Positions 9,727-35,343 of a stretch of DNA of 40,129 bases are shown in pieces (position 1 is the first letter of the stretch; each line of letters opens with the position of its first letter). The stretch lies in assembly GCA_014360465.1 (NCBI GenBank), contig JACIXQ010000015.1:1-40129 (forward strand), written 5' to 3'. The notes beneath the pieces were generated by a model. That model did not search any database. It was not told the DNA's origin and saw only the letters and a list, made by a program, of their open reading frames with translations. Position numbers and translations under genes: made by a program. The stretch comes from a bacterium (lineage in GTDB: Bacteria; Armatimonadota; JACIXR01).

Positions 9727-12700
9727 ATGGATGAAGAATTTCTTCCCACTCTTTTCCACTTTCCCTCCTTTGAAAGGTTCATCATCTTCGACCTTGAGAC
9801 CACGGGTTTGGATGAAGAAGCCCAGCCTTTCCAATTCGCTGCCCTGAAAGTGGAAAACTGGAAAATCACGGCTTCTTTCAACCGATATGTCTTCGCGCCC
9901 ATTGAGAAAGTTCCCTACAGCCTATCCCTCAAGCTCCACCTTCAAGATAAAAAGGAGCTTATAAATTCAGCCCCACCTATTGAGGAAGTAATCAAGGAAT
10001 TTTTCAATTTCATCTCCGATTTTCCCCTCGTCGCACACAATGTTAGATTTGATAGGAAGTTCCTCCTCAAACACAAACCCGATTTAAATAACCCCTTCCT
10101 TGATAGCATAGAACTCTTCTTCCTCGCCTTCCCTCTTGAAACCTCCTATTCCCTTGAAGAGATTATAAACTCCCACCAACTAAAGAAAGAAATCTCAGAA
10201 ACACTTGGGGAACTTGGCTTCAACCAGCTTCATACCCACGACGCCCTCTACGATTGCGTCGCCCTCTTTTGCCTTCTTAAAGAAGCTGTTGAGAAATTGA
10301 GAAAAACCGCCTCCGCTTCCCTCCTACATTTCCCTTCCCCTACTCTCTCCCAATCTCTTGGAATTCCACCCCAAGACCTCAAATCCATTGTCTCCTCCCT
10401 GCTTCCCCCACCTGTGAGCTTGCAGGAGGAGGAAATCCCCTCTTCCCATCCGGAATTCAGCCAACAAGAAGTGCTCAATTTCTACGATGATTGGATTGAA
10501 CGAGCTGGAAGGGAAAAAAGACCATCCCAAAGGATGATGGTGGAGAAGATAGCCGAACTGTTAGATAAGGGGGAGAATGGAATGATTGAGGCGCCAACTG
10601 GCACTGGCAAGACGCTCGCCTACCTCATACCCTCTGCTTTCGCCGCTCGCCGGGGCAAGGGTAAAGTCATCGTCGCCACATACACCAAGCACTTGCAGAA
10701 CCAGGCGCTCTCTGACCTTGAGAACCATCTGATGGGTTATCTTCAATTCGATCCACCTTTGAAATATATCCTCCTGAAAGGACGAGGTAATTACCTCTGT
10801 CTGCGTGCTCTCTTCAACAGGATGGAGGATGCCTTTTCAATCTTTCCAAAGGAAACGGGCGATGACGAGAAATTCCTCCTAATTTATCTCTCCCGCCTCA
10901 TTGAGGAGACGAAGGACAAGATAGAGGATTTGGACGCCATTCCCTATCTCGTCAGCAAAAAATTCCCCTTCCTTTCCAGCCTAAAGGAAAATATCAAATC
11001 GGACTGGGACACCTGCCAGGGGAAATATTGCGAGCATTACGAAAGATGCTTTTTCTGGAAGGCAAGAAAGTTAGCAGATGATGCGGATATCATCATCACT
11101 AATCACTGGAGACTCCTTTTAGCCAAATGGGGTGAGCCCCAGAATTGCAATATAATCATAGACGAGGCGCATAATCTTGAGGATGCCGCAAGCGATGCGT
11201 TTGGTAAGGGGGTGAACAAAGAGGACCTAACTACCATCATCTCGCTCCTATTGACCAGCGATGGGACACGAGGGCTTCTTCCAAAAATCAACGCTTTTCT
11301 CGGAATAGTAGCTGAAAGGGATAAAATACCGGAGCTGATAAATCTACCCGATTTGAGGCAGACATTTGCCATCATCAGGCATCTTTACACCCTCATAGAT
11401 GAGTTTGGGAAATCTCTCCAAATTTATCTTTCAGCTGAAAGAATACCCCTTCATCCCCTTTACGGCGCCTCCCTCTGGCTTAAAGTCCAGCCCAGAGGGA
11501 AAAAGGCAAGAGCCTGGCGTGGCGTTCTTTCAAAATTCAAGAAATTGAACGAAGAGTGGGCAAATCTTAAAAAACTTCTGCTCGCAATTAAGAGCCTCCT
11601 CAACGAGCTGGGCTCCACAAGATATGCCGATGAGTTACAGCTGGTAGTCAATCAGCTTGGGGAAAAGATGGGGAATTTGTACGAAATGCTCAGCTTTGAG
11701 TATGAACAAGAGAAGATTGCACGGTGGATAGAAATCAGCCTTGACAGGGTCAGGATGGAGGAAGGGGGAATTGACCTGAACAACCTTCCCGAAGGATTTC
11801 TTGAAAACCCGCCCTCTGAATTCCTCCACTGGCAGGTTAGGGAAGCTCCCATCAGGATTGATTCCATTTTGCAGGAGAAGATATATCAGCAATTTCGCTC
11901 CGTCGTATTAACCTCTGCCACATTGAGGATTGCGGGAAAAGGCTTCGGCTTCTTCCTTGATAGACTGGGACTGGATAATTATGTTGCTGAGGACAACCTC
12001 CTCTCCCTCCCCAATGTCTTCAATTATGGGGAAAATGTCCTATTAGCCCTGATAAACTATTTACCCAACGATGCCTCATATAAGCAGATAGAGAGATTCA
12101 AGCAGGATGTCCTTGAGGAGTTGGCAAGCTTCATCCCATTCGTTGAGGGACGCACCCTCGTGCTCTTCTCGGCAAGGGATAGGTTGGAATGGATAGGCGA
12201 GAAATTAGAGCCGATACTTGGCGAGCGGATGCTTCCACTTCTCTGGCAGAGATTCGGACATTCAAAGAGTCACATGCTGAGGGAATTCAGGGAGATAGAA
12301 GAGGCAACCCTTATGGGCTTGCGTTCCTTCTGGGAAGGAGTGGATGTGCCGGGCACATCCCTCTGCTACCTCATCCTTGAAAAGCTCCCCTTTCCTCATC
12401 CCGACCCACTAACCCAAGCACGAAGGGAGGATATAAGGAAAAGGGGAGGAGACGAATTCTACGATTACATCCTTCCCCTCACGCTCATTCTTTTCAAGCA
12501 GGGTTTCGGACGCCTCATAAGGTCTCATCGGGACAGGGGAGTTGTCCTATTCCTTGACAGACGTCTTCGCAACGACATCGCAACACGGGAAATCGTCCTC
12601 GGTTCGCTCCCTGGCTTCAAAAGATTCAAGGAGATTGAAAGCGATAGAAAAAGCCTCTATAAGGCTATATGCGAACATATGCAGGAGCTGTTCCCCAATT

Positions 12701-14097
12701 TCCCCTGGGATGATAAGCTCTCCCAGATAGAGGAGATTCCCTCCCAAATTATGACTACAGAGGAAAAAAGCGAAGAGTCCGCTCCGCCGAAAGAGGGAAC
12801 CTTCATCGTTAGAGCTTGGGACTATTCCTCTTTTCTCCAAAATCTACCCGCTGATTTCAAGCTCGCAATCATCTCTCCGGCTGACCCCTCCTTCTCCTTA
12901 TCTGCCCAAAAGAGGGACATCGTCTATCTCCCCGCCCAACCCATATTCAACATCCAGAAGCTATTTGAGGAATGGAAGGAAGGCTCCTTCAATATCCTCG
13001 CTTTACACCCCCACTGGTTGGATGATGCGGAAATAAGAAATCAACTCAGGTCAGCAGATGCAGTGTTGTATCATAATGCCCTCGCCTTCAATTATGCCAG
13101 CACATTCTTCAGCCCGATAATCGCCGAGAGAATTCCCGATATTAAAAGAAAGTTCCTTATAATCCCGCCTCTTGAGGAGGCGATGGAGGGCTTGCCAGCG
13201 GGAGAAATTCTGAACTTTGATGACGAGGAAATGCCAGCGGTGGATATCGGGAGGATTGACGATGTTATGTCGTTTCTTTTTAAGGCGAGGGAGAATGGAG
13301 AGGGCGTCATCATTTACACTCCAACTGACGGGAGGAACCTTGAGGAAAAGCTAAAAAACGAGGGCTTTCTCGCTCGCTGGGGCGAGGAATTCATCCAGCT
13401 TTCCCAGAAGGACCTTTTAAATGTGCTCATCCTTCCTCCCGGGCAGGTAGTAGGCAGGATGGGAGTGAAATTCGTCATCCACAATCCTCCAGTTGGCGAT
13501 AAGCCATCTTATCTCGTTGAAGCCTGCCAAGCGGGATTGGACAGTGAGAAAGGGTTTGCCCTCTTCCGCCTTGATGAGAAGGTCAATAGAGAAGAAATCG
13601 CCCTTTCTATGTTCCCTTCCGAGAAGGATGTTGAGAAATTTGAAGCTCTTGTGAGGGAAAAAGGAGAAGGATTGCTGGACTTAAGGAAAATCACTCCCAA
13701 ACTATGGCGGATTCTCCATCTACTATCCTCAGCGGGAAGGATGGAATGGAGGCTAATAGACAAGGAAATGATGCTGATTCTCCTGAAGGAACTGGAGGAT
13801 AAAGAGTTGGAGGAAATTCTCCGCCGGGTGGGTATAAGCGAGAAACTGATGCGTCCCCTTGACCTATCCCGCTTAGCGGAAGAGACAGGGTTCCCTCTTG
13901 AGGAACTGCATATGCGCCTTCGCAGAAGCCTCTATAGCGGCGAGCTCTTCTATGCGGTCAAGCAGAGGGCTATCCTAATAAGGGCAAAGCCAGCTGGGAA
14001 AGAACCAATTCGTCCGCCTCTCAAGAGGGAAGAAATCCTCCAAAAATGGCAAACGCTTTGGAATTGGCTTTCCAGTATTCCAAAGATGGAGCCTTGA
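9727..14097 (+). CDS. dinG: Exonuclease-DinG helicase with C-terminal degenerate RecQ-like module
   Basis: A 1456-residue fusion. Residues 17-180 are a DnaQ-like DEDDh 3'-5' exonuclease: Asp22, Glu24, Asp109 (AHNVRFD), His171 and Asp176 (HDALYDC). Residues 260-960 are an XPD/DinG superfamily 2 helicase. Walker A is APTGTGKT (Lys295), and an Fe-S cluster is formed by Cys358, 430, 435 and 441. DEAH is at 479-482, and motif VI QGFGRLIRS at 925-933. Ordinary exonuclease-DinG proteins end near 930-1000. After a linker (about 1000-1025) a further 430 residues resemble a worn RecQ: VIIYTPTDGRNLEEKL (1194-1209), VIHNPP (1250-1255) and EACQAGLDS, where RecQ has GRAGRDG. A winged-helix-like tail follows. 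The extra module lacks an arginine finger and Walker A, so it is probably structural. DNA repair or R-loop removal is likely. Confidence 0.88.
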   Translation: MDEEFLPTLFHFPSFERFIIFDLETTGLDEEAQPFQFAALKVENWKITASFNRYVFAPIEKVPYSLSLKLHLQDKKELINSAPPIEEVIKEFFNFISDFPLVAHNVRFDRKFLLKHKPDLNNPFLDSIELFFLAFPLETSYSLEEIINSHQLKKEISETLGELGFNQLHTHDALYDCVALFCLLKEAVEKLRKTASASLLHFPSPTLSQSLGIPPQDLKSIVSSLLPPPVSLQEEEIPSSHPEFSQQEVLNFYDDWIERAGREKRPSQRMMVEKIAELLDKGENGMIEAPTGTGKTLAYLIPSAFAARRGKGKVIVATYTKHLQNQALSDLENHLMGYLQFDPPLKYILLKGRGNYLCLRALFNRMEDAFSIFPKETGDDEKFLLIYLSRLIEETKDKIEDLDAIPYLVSKKFPFLSSLKENIKSDWDTCQGKYCEHYERCFFWKARKLADDADIIITNHWRLLLAKWGEPQNCNIIIDEAHNLEDAASDAFGKGVNKEDLTTIISLLLTSDGTRGLLPKINAFLGIVAERDKIPELINLPDLRQTFAIIRHLYTLIDEFGKSLQIYLSAERIPLHPLYGASLWLKVQPRGKKARAWRGVLSKFKKLNEEWANLKKLLLAIKSLLNELGSTRYADELQLVVNQLGEKMGNLYEMLSFEYEQEKIARWIEISLDRVRMEEGGIDLNNLPEGFLENPPSEFLHWQVREAPIRIDSILQEKIYQQFRSVVLTSATLRIAGKGFGFFLDRLGLDNYVAEDNLLSLPNVFNYGENVLLALINYLPNDASYKQIERFKQDVLEELASFIPFVEGRTLVLFSARDRLEWIGEKLEPILGERMLPLLWQRFGHSKSHMLREFREIEEATLMGLRSFWEGVDVPGTSLCYLILEKLPFPHPDPLTQARREDIRKRGGDEFYDYILPLTLILFKQGFGRLIRSHRDRGVVLFLDRRLRNDIATREIVLGSLPGFKRFKEIESDRKSLYKAICEHMQELFPNFPWDDKLSQIEEIPSQIMTTEEKSEESAPPKEGTFIVRAWDYSSFLQNLPADFKLAIISPADPSFSLSAQKRDIVYLPAQPIFNIQKLFEEWKEGSFNILALHPHWLDDAEIRNQLRSADAVLYHNALAFNYASTFFSPIIAERIPDIKRKFLIIPPLEEAMEGLPAGEILNFDDEEMPAVDIGRIDDVMSFLFKARENGEGVIIYTPTDGRNLEEKLKNEGFLARWGEEFIQLSQKDLLNVLILPPGQVVGRMGVKFVIHNPPVGDKPSYLVEACQAGLDSEKGFALFRLDEKVNREEIALSMFPSEKDVEKFEALVREKGEGLLDLRKITPKLWRILHLLSSAGRMEWRLIDKEMMLILLKELEDKELEEILRRVGISEKLMRPLDLSRLAEETGFPLEELHMRLRRSLYSGELFYAVKQRAILIRAKPAGKEPIRPPLKREEILQKWQTLWNWLSSIPKMEP

Positions 14098-24533: not shown

Positions 24534-25037
24534 ATGGGCAATTTCTTCCAAAATTTGCAACCCTACATCCAATACATCGTTATCTTTGATACCTTCCTTG
24601 TCCTAATTCTCCTAATACTCTTGTTCTCTCTTTCCTCCAAGGTGAAAGAGACGAATCGTCTCCTGCGCTGGCTCTCGGAAGGAGAGAGGCTTCAAGATGT
24701 CAAGCTCCTACTACTCCGCCAGCAGACATTTATGCAAGAGGTAGATGAAAACTTCGCTTCCCTTAAAAGGGATCTGAAAGAGCTACTGGAGAAGCACAAG
24801 GAAACAATTCAGAAAGTTGGCTTCATCCGTTTTGACGCCTTCAAAGATACCGGTGGTGAATTGAGTTTCTCCCTTGCCCTTCTCAATGGAAAAAACGAAG
24901 GCGTGGTAATAAGCAGTTTGCACGGAAGGGAGGGCTCAAGAGTTTATGGCAAAACAATCAAGAATGGTTCCTCCCTCTTCCCCCTTTCCGATGAGGAGAA
25001 GGAAGCGATAAGAAGAGCTTTGAGCGGAGGTGAATGA
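24534..25037 (+). CDS. DUF4446 membrane-anchored protein
   Basis: A 167-residue protein with one membrane segment (about 16-36), a coiled-coil-like helix (VKETNRLLRWLSEGERLQDVK onward to about residue 95) and a small C-terminal domain. The motif VGFIRFDAFKDTGGELSFSLALLNGKNEGVVISSLHGREGSRVYGK is the DUF4446 signature, given here as a paraphrase of separated parts: VGFIRFDAF, GGELSFSLALL, VVISSLHGRE. It begins 4 nt after rph and overlaps the chaperonin ribosome site. Function is unknown; in Firmicutes it is often found near cell-division or chromosome-partition genes. Confidence 0.85.
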   Translation: MGNFFQNLQPYIQYIVIFDTFLVLILLILLFSLSSKVKETNRLLRWLSEGERLQDVKLLLLRQQTFMQEVDENFASLKRDLKELLEKHKETIQKVGFIRFDAFKDTGGELSFSLALLNGKNEGVVISSLHGREGSRVYGKTIKNGSSLFPLSDEEKEAIRRALSGGE

Positions 25038-25041
25038 TGAA

Positions 25042-26622
25042 ATGGCAGGAGAGGTGAAGAATGTATCAAAGTCCGAAGTTGACGAGAGGTTATCAGCCCT
25101 CTTGAACAACGCATCAGCTATCAGGGCTGTTGCTTCCGCCGTTGAGGGAACTATAGGTCCAAAAGGACTGAATTGTATGCTCGTTGATAGGTTCGGCGAT
25201 GTCGTCATAACTAACGACGGCGCTACCATTCTGAGCAAGATAGAAGTTAACCATCCCGCTGGGAAGATGTTGATAAATGCGGCTAAGGCACAGGATGAGG
25301 AAGTTGGGGACGGAACGACCACCGTCACGCTACTCGCCTCAACCATCATTACCGAGGGAGTGAATCAGGTCCTCAGGGGAGTTCCTATAGCGAAAGTAAT
25401 TGAAGGGATAAGAGTGGGGATAAAGAAGGCTATAGAGGTTATGAAGAAGCATAGCCGACCGATTGAAGACTTCTCCTCTCCCCTTCTCTATCGTGCCGCC
25501 TATGTTGCGGGGCGCGAAAACGAGGATATAGCGAGGATAACAGTGGATGCGGGCAGGATTATGGGAAAAGAAAAACTTCTTGACCCCTCGTTTAAGTTGA
25601 AGGATATGGTCGTGGCAAAGGAAGGAGCAAATAACGAGGTTTTCCTCGGCTTAATAATAGAAAAGGAGAGGATGAACCGCCAGATGCCACGCAAAGTGGA
25701 GAAAACACCTGTCTTGGTTGTTGATGATGCCCTTGAGCCGGAGGAGATTGAAGATGATGCCCTTGCCACAGAAAGCGGGTTCAGGGAATACCAGAGGCTA
25801 CGACAGGAATTCAAGCAAGGGATAGAGAGGATAATTTCCCTTGGAGTGAAGTTCGTGGCAGTCTCCAAGGGAGTTGATAGATTAGCAGAGGAGATGCTGA
25901 CCGATGCCGGCGTTATGGTTCTCAGACGACTTTCAAACAAGGATATAAACAAAATCTCCGAACATACAGGAGCAAAACCGATAAAAAGGACCTCGCTCTC
26001 AAAGTCAAAAGAGGAGTTGCAATCGTTCCTGGGCTATGCTGAGATGGTGGTCCACGATGAGAAACTTGAACATACCCGCATTATGGGAGGCAAGGGCAAA
26101 CCAATGGCGACGATACTCGTTGGCGCATCTACCGAGGAGGTCAAAGAGGAAAGAGAGAGAATAGCAAAGGATTCAGCCGCAGCAGTCCAAGCGGCGATAA
26201 AAGAAGGTGTCCTCCCAGGTGGTGGGGCAATAGAGCTCTATGCGATAAAGGAGGTCCAGAAAGCAAGGGACGAGGTGAAGGGAATGGCTGTCTACGGGAT
26301 AGATTGTGTGATAGAAGCCCTCAAGAAACCCCTTACCCAGATAGTCCTTAATGCGGGCTTCAATCCCCTTGAGAAAATAGGCGATGTGCTTGCTCAACAA
26401 GCCCAGACCGATAACGACGCCCTCGCCATAGACTGTGATACTGGCGAGGTGGTAGATATGATGGAGATGGGGATAGTTGACCCCACCTTGGTCAAAATAT
26501 TCGCCCTCAAAACCGCAGGTGAGCTCGCTGAGGCAATTCTTCGCATAAATATGATTATCAAGAAAAAGGAGGAACCACCCACAGAGGAGAAGGAAAAATC
26601 AGCTCCAAAAGAGGAATTCTAA
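25042..26622 (+). CDS. Group II-type (thermosome-like, bacterial 'group III') chaperonin
   Basis: A 526-residue ATP-dependent folding chamber subunit of the archaeal/eukaryotic thermosome type, not GroEL. It has the group II signatures TNDGATIL (57-64), VGDGTTTVTLLA (88-99, Asp90), GGGAIE (393-398) and IVDPTLVK. An apical helical protrusion acts as a built-in lid (region LEPEEIEDDALATE onward), and there is no GroES site. The C-terminus is charged (KKKEEPPTEEKE) without a GGM tail. The start at ATG 25042 is preferred over the GTG at 25030, because the GGAGGT site overlaps the GTG and stands 10 nt before the ATG. It is in an operon with cell-wall and RNase PH genes rather than with dnaK or groES. 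Confidence 0.92.
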   Translation: MAGEVKNVSKSEVDERLSALLNNASAIRAVASAVEGTIGPKGLNCMLVDRFGDVVITNDGATILSKIEVNHPAGKMLINAAKAQDEEVGDGTTTVTLLASTIITEGVNQVLRGVPIAKVIEGIRVGIKKAIEVMKKHSRPIEDFSSPLLYRAAYVAGRENEDIARITVDAGRIMGKEKLLDPSFKLKDMVVAKEGANNEVFLGLIIEKERMNRQMPRKVEKTPVLVVDDALEPEEIEDDALATESGFREYQRLRQEFKQGIERIISLGVKFVAVSKGVDRLAEEMLTDAGVMVLRRLSNKDINKISEHTGAKPIKRTSLSKSKEELQSFLGYAEMVVHDEKLEHTRIMGGKGKPMATILVGASTEEVKEERERIAKDSAAAVQAAIKEGVLPGGGAIELYAIKEVQKARDEVKGMAVYGIDCVIEALKKPLTQIVLNAGFNPLEKIGDVLAQQAQTDNDALAIDCDTGEVVDMMEMGIVDPTLVKIFALKTAGELAEAILRINMIIKKKEEPPTEEKEKSAPKEEF

Positions 26623-30787: not shown

Positions 30788-32794
30788 ATGAAAAGGAACT
30801 GGATGGCAACGGTGTGGTTATTGTTGGGCTTCTTCTTGCTTATTTATGGAAATCCCACTATGTTTTTATCTCAGGCGGGACCGATTATTGTACCCCACTA
30901 TCCTCCTTCTTCCTTTTTATTCTCAATCTTTTCAATCTTCAAAGGGATTTTCCTCTCGGCTATTCTCGCCGGTTACCTCGCCAATAGGAAGATTCAAAGG
31001 AGAATCTCGCTAAATAGCCTCTTTCTCTTCCTCTTATTAATTTATGCCGTTATTCGCAACATCCAAACCTTGCATATTATGAGGGATATTTCGCGCTATT
31101 CTGGTTTTTCTCCTCACGGCTTCACCTGGTTTAATCAGGTAATCCTCTGGCTCGTTGTCCTCTTGGGAATCCTCCTTGGCGGTTATCTTTCCTACAAATT
31201 TGAAAACACCTTTTTAGGTAATAGCCTTTTCGCTTTCACCATTGTTTTGCTTCTTTTCAAATCCGTGCGATTTCTATCTACAGCTTTATTTTCCCTTTTT
31301 AAAGCTTCATCCCCTCAGGAAATTTTCCTCGTTACCTCCCTAACTAACCTTCTTGATAAATTGCTCATCTATATTGAATATATCATCATTGGCGTGGTAG
31401 CTATATTCATTCCTCCAGGCTATGTTTCTATGGTCTTTCTCGCTAGCCTCGCCTACTCTTTGGGATTTTTTGGTTTTCCATCCTTTTTTACCAGCAATAT
31501 TTCCCTTAATGCCCTTCATTGTCTGGAGGTATGTCTGGGAACAACTATACCCACCTTACTTACATTGTGGGTGAAAAGCTATCTTGAAAGAAAGGGCAAA
31601 TCAGAAAGAACACTCCAGTTTACCCTCATCCCCTTTTTATTAATCGCTTTCATCCTTTCCCACATTCTTTTAGCAATCACCTCCCACCCAGCTCGATCTC
31701 GCGTTGCAAAATTTCCCCTCTCTAACTATGACCCTCTTTCCCAGGCACAGCTACACTGGGGAGCCATCTTCCTTGATGGAAAGGGCTTAGCAATAGCTTA
31801 CAGTCAAAGGGATTTCATAGAAGCAACAGATGTTCCTCAAGCCGAACGGATAAAAGACCATATTCGCATATTCGCCCGTGTGGGCGAGACGGGCGATTTG
31901 CCACTGGAGGGAATAGATATATCGGAGCAAAGTAGTTTTTCCTCCCCTGATGGGCGCTGGTTGCTTCTTTATGGAATACCCCTCGCCAAAAAAACGGCGG
32001 TAAAAAGCCCCCGCAACCTCTATCTTATGGATTTAGAAAACGGAACGATTCGCCTGATAGATAATAACCCCTGCCAGGATATTTATATTTATTCTCCTTG
32101 GAATAGCGAATCAAGCCAATTTCTCTATGCGGGCTATTCCAAAGAGACTGGACATCCCGCTCTATTTCTCTGCGATTTGAAAGGGGAGAAGAAGAAGTTG
32201 TTTGAATACTCGCCCATTGAAAGAGATTACTTCTTTGAAACTTCCTCTGCAGGAGGAATGTGGGATGAGAAAGGGAGAGATATCTATATCTGGGAAGAAG
32301 GAAAAGGGGTTTTCCGGGCAAGATGCCACGAGTTGCGAATAGAGAAACTATATGATTCCCCTCATATTAAAGAGAAGCGCAACTTCTCGGTTCTGTTGAA
32401 CCCTTCGGCAGGTATATTGCTATTTGGGAAAGGAGATGAATCACCGAATGTTCCCAGAAGCGACTATCTCGCTCTATTTGATTTGACCAAAGGAAAGTTC
32501 CTCTACAAAAAGCGATTCATACATCCACCAGTCGTCATTCTGCCCCAAAATGTGAAAGTTGCCCCGAGCGGGAAAGGGGCTATTCTCCTGCCCGAAACTA
32601 CCCTCCCCGAACTTAATGTTCTTTATCGGGGTTCTAATGGAAAGGTAATGTCTTTCTCCTTAAAGACTCTCGCTACATTGATAGATGCAATCTGGGGTAA
32701 GGACGATGCAATTTATATCGCTGTTCTAAGTTGGCAATCTACTTTAACCCCGAAGGATATTATAGAGATCTACAGGGTAAGAATCGTCCATTGA
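30788..32794 (+). CDS. Polytopic membrane protein with large extracytoplasmic domain
   Basis: A 668-residue protein. The first 300 residues hold about nine membrane segments (7-28, 35-60, 75-90, 108-132, 143-165, 190-212, 215-235, 245-262 and 272-296). The remaining 360 residues are soluble and beta-rich. Blocks such as SSPDGRWLLLYGIPL, YLMDLENGTIRLID and ALFLCDLKGEKKKLFEY, with SAGGMWDEKGRDIYIW, look like blades of a TolB/WD40-type propeller. No catalytic motif is seen. It is a single gene with its own promoter and AAGGAAG ribosome site. I do not recognise the family; a receptor or surface anchor is possible. Confidence 0.7.
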   Translation: MKRNWMATVWLLLGFFLLIYGNPTMFLSQAGPIIVPHYPPSSFLFSIFSIFKGIFLSAILAGYLANRKIQRRISLNSLFLFLLLIYAVIRNIQTLHIMRDISRYSGFSPHGFTWFNQVILWLVVLLGILLGGYLSYKFENTFLGNSLFAFTIVLLLFKSVRFLSTALFSLFKASSPQEIFLVTSLTNLLDKLLIYIEYIIIGVVAIFIPPGYVSMVFLASLAYSLGFFGFPSFFTSNISLNALHCLEVCLGTTIPTLLTLWVKSYLERKGKSERTLQFTLIPFLLIAFILSHILLAITSHPARSRVAKFPLSNYDPLSQAQLHWGAIFLDGKGLAIAYSQRDFIEATDVPQAERIKDHIRIFARVGETGDLPLEGIDISEQSSFSSPDGRWLLLYGIPLAKKTAVKSPRNLYLMDLENGTIRLIDNNPCQDIYIYSPWNSESSQFLYAGYSKETGHPALFLCDLKGEKKKLFEYSPIERDYFFETSSAGGMWDEKGRDIYIWEEGKGVFRARCHELRIEKLYDSPHIKEKRNFSVLLNPSAGILLFGKGDESPNVPRSDYLALFDLTKGKFLYKKRFIHPPVVILPQNVKVAPSGKGAILLPETTLPELNVLYRGSNGKVMSFSLKTLATLIDAIWGKDDAIYIAVLSWQSTLTPKDIIEIYRVRIVH

Positions 32795-32917: not shown

Positions 32918-35343
32918 TCACATCGGAGGCGTCGTCGTCAATCTTCCATCATCTGTGATATAGAGGTCGTTTCCTTGCTCGTCCTCCAACCTGAAAAATA
33001 ACCCCCAATCGCCGCCTCCATTTGCAACCGCTACGAGGAGTATATTATCTCCCGCCTGGAATTCTATGTCGCCGGAATATTGGTCCCTTTTTGCTCCCTG
33101 CATCGCAACAACCTGCATACATAATTTTCCATTCAATCTGAGGGAGAAAGAATCATCACTTCCGATATAGACCCTCGCCTTCATCGGCTTATCACAATGA
33201 ATCTTCCTCACTACATAGCCAACTATATCGGTTGTCCTACCAAGGCTCTTATAGAACTTGACGAAGTCAACAAACGCATCACCCTCGGTGATATCTGTCA
33301 GCGGTTGAGAAAGAGCCGAGGAAACTATCTTATCCATCTCCTCGTCGCTTAAATGGGGAAGGACGCTCTTATTTTCCCAGGGCGTCGTTATCTTAGAGAA
33401 GTGCCATTTTCTTACCCAAGGACCGAGAATAATCGCCAGAAGCCTTTTATCCTGCGAATCATCCCAAACTTTGAGATAACCGTCATCAGTCAGAATGAGC
33501 CTCTTCCCATCCTCATCCTCTAATCTCAGCAGAAGTCCCCAACCGCCTTCCCAATTGTCAACCTCCACAAGAAGGCGATTCTCGCCCGTTAGGAGCTCAA
33601 CCTCAGTTGTATCCTCATCGGGGTGCGCTCCACGCAGAGCAAGCACTTCCTTCACCAATTTCCCATTGAGCCAAATCCTAAGAGAATCATCGCTTCCCGT
33701 CAATATCTTTATCCTCCTTGCTCCTTCGCTCTTTATTATTCTGAAAGCATAGCCAGCGATGTGTTCATTCTCCCCTTTAAAAACGCGGGTGAAATCTATG
33801 AAGGATGTCTTAAAACGAGTCAAGGGAGCGGAACGGGCCGAATTCTCTATCTCTTTCAGCTTCTCAAGGGAGATTTGAGGGAAAGAGTTATAATCCTGCC
33901 ATTTAACCGTTATGCGAGAGAACTGCCAGCTCTGGATGAATGGACCCCTCAATAGCTCTTCCAATCCGCTGTGAAAAACGTTCCCCTCTCCATCGACAAC
34001 CCGTATCGTCACATCCTTTTCCGAACCGATTTTCCTGCCGAGCTCTCGCAATGGCACGCTCACTTCCTTGAGACTTTTGCCGAATAGAGGAAGATAGAAA
34101 TTTGATTCCCCTTTATAATCAAATCCCACGAAGCCAAGCCCATTAGGGGATTGCACGATGAGTTTCATATCAGACCTCTCTATGTAGATATCGGTCAGAT
34201 TCTCATCTGAGAATCTCATCCTATCCAGGGCTAACCATCTATTTGCGAGCATTGCCTCGGCATTAATCGGAGCCCAGTAAGCCTCCTCGTTTTCCTTGAA
34301 TTCGTAGCTTTGAGGACGCCTTGCGTGAGGAGGCTCTACAAGAGTGAAGACCCTGGTGAAGTAATCAAAACCTCGGGACATTATGTCGTATGGGTCGGTG
34401 CTATGGGGAAGGTCGAAGGTATGACCGAGCTCGTGAAGGGCTGCTCCAATAGTAGTTGAAGCACAACCCCAGACAGTATCCCTCCAGACAGAATCGCTGA
34501 ATACTTTCTCCGTGTTCACAATTGTATCATCCATAAAGTAGCGCTGGACATCCTGCAGGCTATTCGGCCAGGCAAAGAGGTTTACCCCTCCCATAAGCGC
34601 CTGGTTGCCACCCCCTAAAGCAGCGTGAGCATAGAGTTTCTTTGCCTCTGGGTCATAATAGGTAAAGGCAGGTATGACGAGATTCTTTGCATAGGGGTCG
34701 GGCATCTTTCTCGCTATCTCATCGTATATTTCATCGTAGAGCTGACCACCATCCAGTTTCCAGTATTCCTCCTTGCTTTTATCTCCTTTGAGAATATGGA
34801 CCTTTACATCGCCATTCTCGTCAAGTTCGAGATTGAAGGTGCGTCTTGGATAGCCTAAATCGTGGAACTTCTCCGCCGTGAAGGTCTGAAGAAGCTTGGC
34901 AAGCGTGTCAAGTTTGCCGCGATAATCCTGAGGGTCATCAGGGAAAGGTGTCTGATAGCGAGTATCGCCAGATTTGTCAGTAAAATATATTATCCTGACA
35001 TAATAGGGATTGGTTTGTGGCTTATATCGGAGATTGAAGCTCGTCTCAATTGAGCCCGCTCGTAGGATGAGGTAATTCTCTCCCGGAACGAGCTCGCAAA
35101 GAACCTTGAAGCGTCCATTATGAACAACCCCTTTCATAACCCTCGTCCTTTTTGTTGAGGACTTATTGATGACGAAGATAGTATCGGCGTCAATGTCGGA
35201 TAGGGTCCCTTTAAGCAGGACGACTGGATAGCGGACGACCTCACCCGGCTGATAATTGGATATGTTAATCATCGGCTGGGAGAAAATCACCGCCCAAAGC
35301 GAAATCAGTATGAGGAAAAGCCCGACCTTTATAAAGCAATCAC
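32918..35343 (-). CDS. Secreted metzincin-type metalloprotease with duplicated C-terminal domains (frameshift at signal peptide)
   Basis: An about 808-residue exported zinc protease. HELGHTFDLPH (286-296, counted from a GTG at 35290) is the metzincin HExxHxxxxxH motif with Glu287 as catalyst. DPYDIMSRGFDYFTRVFT follows and recalls the YIL108W-like family (Pfam Metallopep, PF12044), mainly eukaryotic. The C-terminus has two repeats of about 190 residues, each with WHFS/WQFS, GYxxR(I/K)I, GSDDSxxxxLNGK and GWGLLLRLEDE / DWGLFFRLEDE. The start is disturbed. The frame opens at GTG 35290, but a clear signal peptide (FIKVGLFLILISLWAVIFSQ) lies upstream. One added base in the T-run near 35333 would start it at GTG 35343, overlapping the GH78 stop. 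Confidence 0.78.

Follow-up and report, generated by a model that had tools for sequence, protein, structure and literature searches.

A DnaQ-DinG exonuclease-helicase from Armatimonadota with a putative RecQ-derived pseudohelicase tail

Introduction

The closest described systems to the gene considered here are the ExoDinG proteins, which combine an N-terminal DEDD exonuclease with an XPD-like helicase, and a three-domain fusion from Thermus. Specifically, the Staphylococcus aureus ExoDinG degrades DNA 3'-5', unwinds it 5'-3', and is required for crosslink repair (PMC12345164), and that of Bacillus subtilis degrades DNA 3'-5', removes R-loops, and binds RecA (PMC12525004). The Thermus-type protein, DnaQ-DinG-RecQ (WP_011174436), was described in 2005 from the megaplasmid pTT27 of Thermus thermophilus HB27, a member of the Deinococcota (PMC1274311), and a RecQ module is absent from all ten subgroups of DinG-like proteins set out in the main text of a 2025 review (PMC11981726). 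Here, we describe a gene at positions 9727-14097 (+) of a 40,129-nucleotide window (the whole stretch of DNA analyzed; contig JACIXQ010000015.1, assembly GCA_014360465.1) from a bacterium of the phylum Armatimonadota. It encodes a DnaQ-type exonuclease, a DinG helicase, and a C-terminal third, hereafter the tail, that appears to be a RecQ-derived pseudohelicase. ExoDinG shares the first two modules, motifs intact, but stops after the helicase, whereas the present protein continues into a further, apparently RecQ-derived module. The Thermus-type fusion joins these three modules in an identical order on one polypeptide, but its RecQ module retains the Walker A motif, DEAH, GRAGRDG, and the zinc domain, all of which have been lost here, and the present protein is some 200 residues shorter.

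Results

The last 465 residues of the protein have no Pfam or NCBIfam match, and Pfam, NCBIfam, and PDB sequence searches found nothing, either with the tail itself or with an alignment of the three tails known from the genus. Profile-profile comparison was the sole sequence method that linked the tail to RecQ. With the three-tail alignment as the query and nine RecQ sequences as the target (five from Deinococcota fusions and four free RecQs from the window's phylum), hhalign returned a probability of 93.7, a P of 1.9e-7, and a score of 64.8, in a match that placed tail residues 5-465 on RecQ 11-524 and ran through both lobes. The controls scored far lower: at most 24.6 for 100 column-shuffled tails and 13.7 for the reversed alignment. 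Other profiles reached 32-36 (ExoDinG), 18-22 (a MrfA-type set), and 15-24 (ten other open reading frames [ORFs] from helicase-like loci); a second DinG copy as the origin of the tail was rejected on its lower scores. A profile score so far beyond chance supports common ancestry of the tail with RecQ, which upholds the RecQ likeness that an initial annotation of this DNA had proposed and speaks against its stated alternative of a tail with no RecQ fold. When taken alone, lobe 2 still matched RecQ (probability 84, E 7e-6), and the C-terminal 155 residues alone gave no significant RecQ match; this C-terminal part and lobe 1 are assigned because they are collinear with RecQ in the whole-module alignment.

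Homologous as it is to bacterial RecQ by profile, the tail lacks every catalytic motif and the zinc domain of that family. It is preceded by a poorly conserved linker (residues 986-1030; 12682-12816, +), which is 27-29% identical within the genus in our alignment; in the Thermus fusions, the matching stretch is longer and contains the RecQ motif 0 region. In the putative lobe 1 (residues 1031-1175; 12817-13251, +), WDYSSF replaces the Walker A sequence PTGFGKS, IISPAD replaces ISPLVAL, FLIIPP replaces FTATLT, and LYHNALAFNYASTFFSP stands where RecQ has FDEAHCLxEWGxDFRP. The DEAH position reads LYHNALAF, and the position of the aromatic-rich loop reads YxSTFFxP, aromatic yet unlike RecQ. In the putative lobe 2 (residues 1176-1300; 13252-13626, +), VIIYTPTDG corresponds to motif IV and VLILPPGQ...GVKFVIHNPP to the motif V region, and at motif VI, YLVEACQAGLDS stands for YxQQAGRAGRDG, both arginines being gone. 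The RecQ landmarks named in the initial annotation (VIIYTPT, VIHNPP, and EACQAGLDS) all lie here, within residues 1194-1273. The C-terminal helical part (residues 1301-1456; 13627-14094, +) is partly alignable to the segment that follows lobe 2 in the Deinococcota fusions and is without the RecQ zinc-binding domain; RecQ_Zn_bind (PF16124) has no match in the three genus genomes at E 1.

These losses recur in all three species of the genus, where the Walker A, DEAH, motif III, and motif VI positions are filled by residues unfit for the motif. Walker A is replaced by WDYSSF, TTNLSP, and TTDLSL, none of which conforms to GxGKS/T, and motif VI (QxGRAGRDG) is replaced by EACQAGLDS, ESSQAQWGG, and EASQAGGED, so that the absence of Walker A and of the motif VI arginines, first noted for the single sequence, holds for all three. 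The tail is nevertheless constrained. Its frame runs uninterrupted for more than 400 codons in all three species, whose synonymous sites are saturated, third codon positions differ most, and dN is 0.4-0.7 with dS saturated. The tail evolves faster than the DinG part (37-51% versus 49-73% identity within the genus), and it retains the invariant blocks LHPxWL, YxSTFFxP, LILPPG, WGE, and VIHxPPxGDKxSYLxE. Judged by its codons, the module is under purifying selection, as a constrained pseudohelicase rather than a fresh pseudogene.

The fusion itself is real. The ORF (1456 codons, with an ATG start and a stop at its end) has full-length orthologues of 1441 and 1460 amino acids (aa), 52 and 54% identical, in two further species of the genus. 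Around these orthologues, gene order has nothing in common with that of the window, which excludes an assembly join; the artefact that the initial annotation had allowed for is ruled out by the same fusion in three genomes and in differing neighborhoods.

By its motifs, the stretch of residues 1-985 is an ExoDinG with every catalytic motif present. Pfam matches, all above the gathering score, cover RNase_T (residues 19-180), DEAD (272-334), DEAD_2 (433-499), and Helicase_C_2 (802-954; E 9e-32). The DEDDh 3'-5' exonuclease domain (residues 1-200; 9727-10326, +; RNase_T, 7e-11) carries D22/E24, H104-N105/D109, and H171/D176, which are invariant in an alignment of eight sequences (the three of the genus and five Deinococcota relatives). 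The DinG helicase core (residues 263-985; 10513-12681, +), delimited by the three helicase Pfam domains, the NCBIfam DinG models, and alignment, has Walker A GTGKT (292-296), DEAH (479-482), SAT (730-732), EGVDVPG (870-876), and QGFGRLIR (925-932), together with the Fe-S cysteines C358/C430/C435/C441. The exonuclease residues, Walker A, four cysteines, DEAH, motif V, and motif VI (the core of QGFGRLIR) are kept both in the genus and in the five Thermus/Deinococcus relatives, so Pfam and alignment bear out the earlier description of this part as DnaQ-DinG with an intact exonuclease, Walker A, Fe-S cysteines, and DEAH; from these motifs, it looks like an active enzyme. Its scores fall below the cut-offs of the full-length NCBIfam models TIGR01407 and PRK08074 (337 versus 547.7 bits and 423 versus 789 bits, respectively), by which the protein is a divergent ExoDinG member. 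The closest PDB relative of this first part is the exonuclease-bearing DinG 8zef (1.2e-36), and in each of the three genus genomes, the fusion protein is the sole DinG.

The initial annotation had suggested that this combination would be a new architecture, a claim that does not stand: beyond the HB27 protein of 2005, we found DnaQ-DinG-RecQ with an intact RecQ in Thermus (including T. brockianus), Meiothermus, Allomeiothermus, and Deinococcus (including Deinococcus actinosclerus), in a survey that, beyond the window's phylum, covered a plasmid collection. Within the phylum, the fusion is confined to the genus among 291 genomes; outside the genus, the top-scoring ExoDinGs are unfused proteins some 900-1000 aa long. 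Homology between the Thermus-type RecQ and the genus tail is detectable through both lobes. In trees of the exonuclease-DinG part, which have long branches and limited sampling that is thin beyond the phylum, the genus clusters with the Deinococcota fusions in a single clade (support 98/94 and 98/98), and a topology joining it instead to ExoDinGs from its own phylum is rejected (p-AU 0.016). The simplest history consistent with these sequences would be that the genus protein and the Deinococcota fusions stem from one ancestral fusion, whose RecQ then lost catalysis in this genus; transfer between thermophiles could also have occurred. The architecture was already known; the novelty lies in the loss of RecQ catalysis and in its conservation across a genus for which the searches found no further RecQ.

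Within Thermus, the fusion is broken into pieces on the T. thermophilus SG0.5JP17-16 plasmid (NC_017273.1) and is cut down to the exonuclease on the HB8 plasmid (NC_006462.1) and in three further records. Split or reduced as it is there, the Thermus fusion is dispensable in those strains.

No RecQ above the TIGR00614 cut-off occurs in the three genus genomes, in which RecJ is present. The best match to the RecQ model in the genome is a 753-aa protein, which was considered as a canonical RecQ and rejected, being a MrfA/Hrq1-type helicase with an MZB domain; this protein and its relatives made up the MrfA-type control set used above. Among five other members of the phylum, a RecQ passes the cut-off in three and none does in the remaining two, so the absence of a free RecQ is not peculiar to this genus. 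No relative of the tail was found in viral contigs, and a search of the genome contigs returned a single match, the copy in one other species of the genus.

Elsewhere in the window, positions 25030-26622 (+) encode a thermosome/CCT-like chaperonin (Cpn60_TCP1, 6.7e-109), for which the top NCBIfam models are archaeal thermosome models, below cut-off. It occurs in addition to a separate GroEL-like gene and is about 90% identical in the other two species, and three other phylum members sampled for it gave weak GroEL-like matches only; it could belong to the group III-type bacterial chaperonins. Two large ORFs, at 30788-32794 (+) and 32918-35290 (-) (668 and 790 aa), have no NCBIfam match at 1e-10.

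Discussion

Our results favor, with reasonable though not strong confidence, a protein that is an ExoDinG with a RecQ-derived pseudohelicase, descended from the Thermus/Deinococcus fusion, in which the tail serves an active machine as a passive arm for binding DNA or partners. In such a protein, the first two modules would act as a 3'-5' exonuclease and a 5'-3' Fe-S helicase, doing ExoDinG-type work, and the C-terminal third would be a RecQ deprived of ATP binding and hydrolysis, its two-lobe scaffold kept. That the tail binds DNA or partners is plausible by analogy with other dead helicase modules; gripping either, it might position or regulate the exonuclease-DinG machine.

Several observations weigh against this interpretation. 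The evidence for RecQ depends on the pooled RecQ profile, as hhalign scores against single RecQ sequences scatter over 29-54, and lobe 1 alone has no significant RecQ match. The exonuclease-DinG clade unites two long branches whose composition shows a thermophile bias, and the clade of the genus with the Deinococcota fusions disappeared from a tree with an extra Streptomyces ORF, whose branch exceeded 4 changes per column; that row, probably a wrong ORF, was removed. Further, the AlphaFold2 models of the tail, built from an alignment of genus sequences only (two sequences, and no RecQ), are weak, with a pLDDT of 42 for the tail and 57 for a trimmed core, although much of lobe 1, its best-modeled part, reaches 74-86. 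In favor of RecQ, Foldseek ranked RecQ cores at the top for these models (4tmu, E 9.7e-8; BLM, E 3.7e-6), with low TM-scores of about 0.2-0.3; VIA-align gave RecQ a Z of about 9-10.5, with other SF2 helicases equal to RecQ by structural alignment alone. We thus read the modeled fold, with moderate confidence, as SF2-like; in sequence, the tail is RecQ-like.

These mixed SF2 matches are what one would expect if the tail, SF2-like or otherwise, had arisen independently, for instance from a second DinG core or another helicase, and resembled the Thermus fusion by convergence; such an origin is also in keeping with lobe 2 carrying most of the RecQ homology and with RecQ being missed by hidden Markov model searches. 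We regard it as unlikely, given the RecQ profile score of 64.8 as opposed to 15-36 for ExoDinG, the MrfA set, and other helicases, the Foldseek ranking, and a module order and position shared with the Deinococcota fusions, which are sister to the genus in the tree of the DinG part. Slightly less likely still is that the tail is a decaying remnant, drifting without function since the loss of RecQ activity and tolerated since the ExoDinG part works. Its faster evolution relative to the DinG part would fit such decay, as would the broken or lost Thermus fusions of SG0.5JP17-16 and HB8, but more than 400 codons have stayed open in three species despite saturated synonymous sites, dN lies far under dS, and the tail blocks are invariant. 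A double helicase, in which the tail still binds nucleotide or acts as a motor via unconventional residues, could draw on the apparently kept two-lobe scaffold and on PPxGDK, a motif that does not vary within the genus and differs from RecQ, but is very improbable, with the Walker A lysine, the DEAH Asp/Glu, and both motif VI arginines replaced, and differently so in each of the three species.

If the tail is indeed a binding arm derived from RecQ, its retention invites comparison with other inactive helicase modules. RecC and AddB carry inactive helicase domains. In Brr2, an active SF2 cassette and an inactive C-terminal helicase cassette share one chain (PMC8220420), an analogy only, as Brr2 is a Ski2-like RNA helicase of the spliceosome, from an unrelated lineage, and its dead cassette retains the nucleotide pocket. 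More tentatively, and with somewhat less than even confidence, we propose that the genus has kept the pseudo-RecQ as a module devoted to recognition or regulation on an active exonuclease-helicase, in lieu of any free RecQ; the arrangement, resembling that of RecC/AddB or Brr2, would have originated inside the RecQ/DinG lineage. The genus is a lineage whose only recognizable relic of the RecQ family, besides the MrfA/Hrq1-type helicase, is a pseudohelicase that Pfam and NCBIfam miss wholly. Together with the Thermus and Deinococcus proteins, it offers both states of one fusion, with RecQ intact there and dead here, such that the scaffold and motor roles of a RecQ module are separable experimentally.

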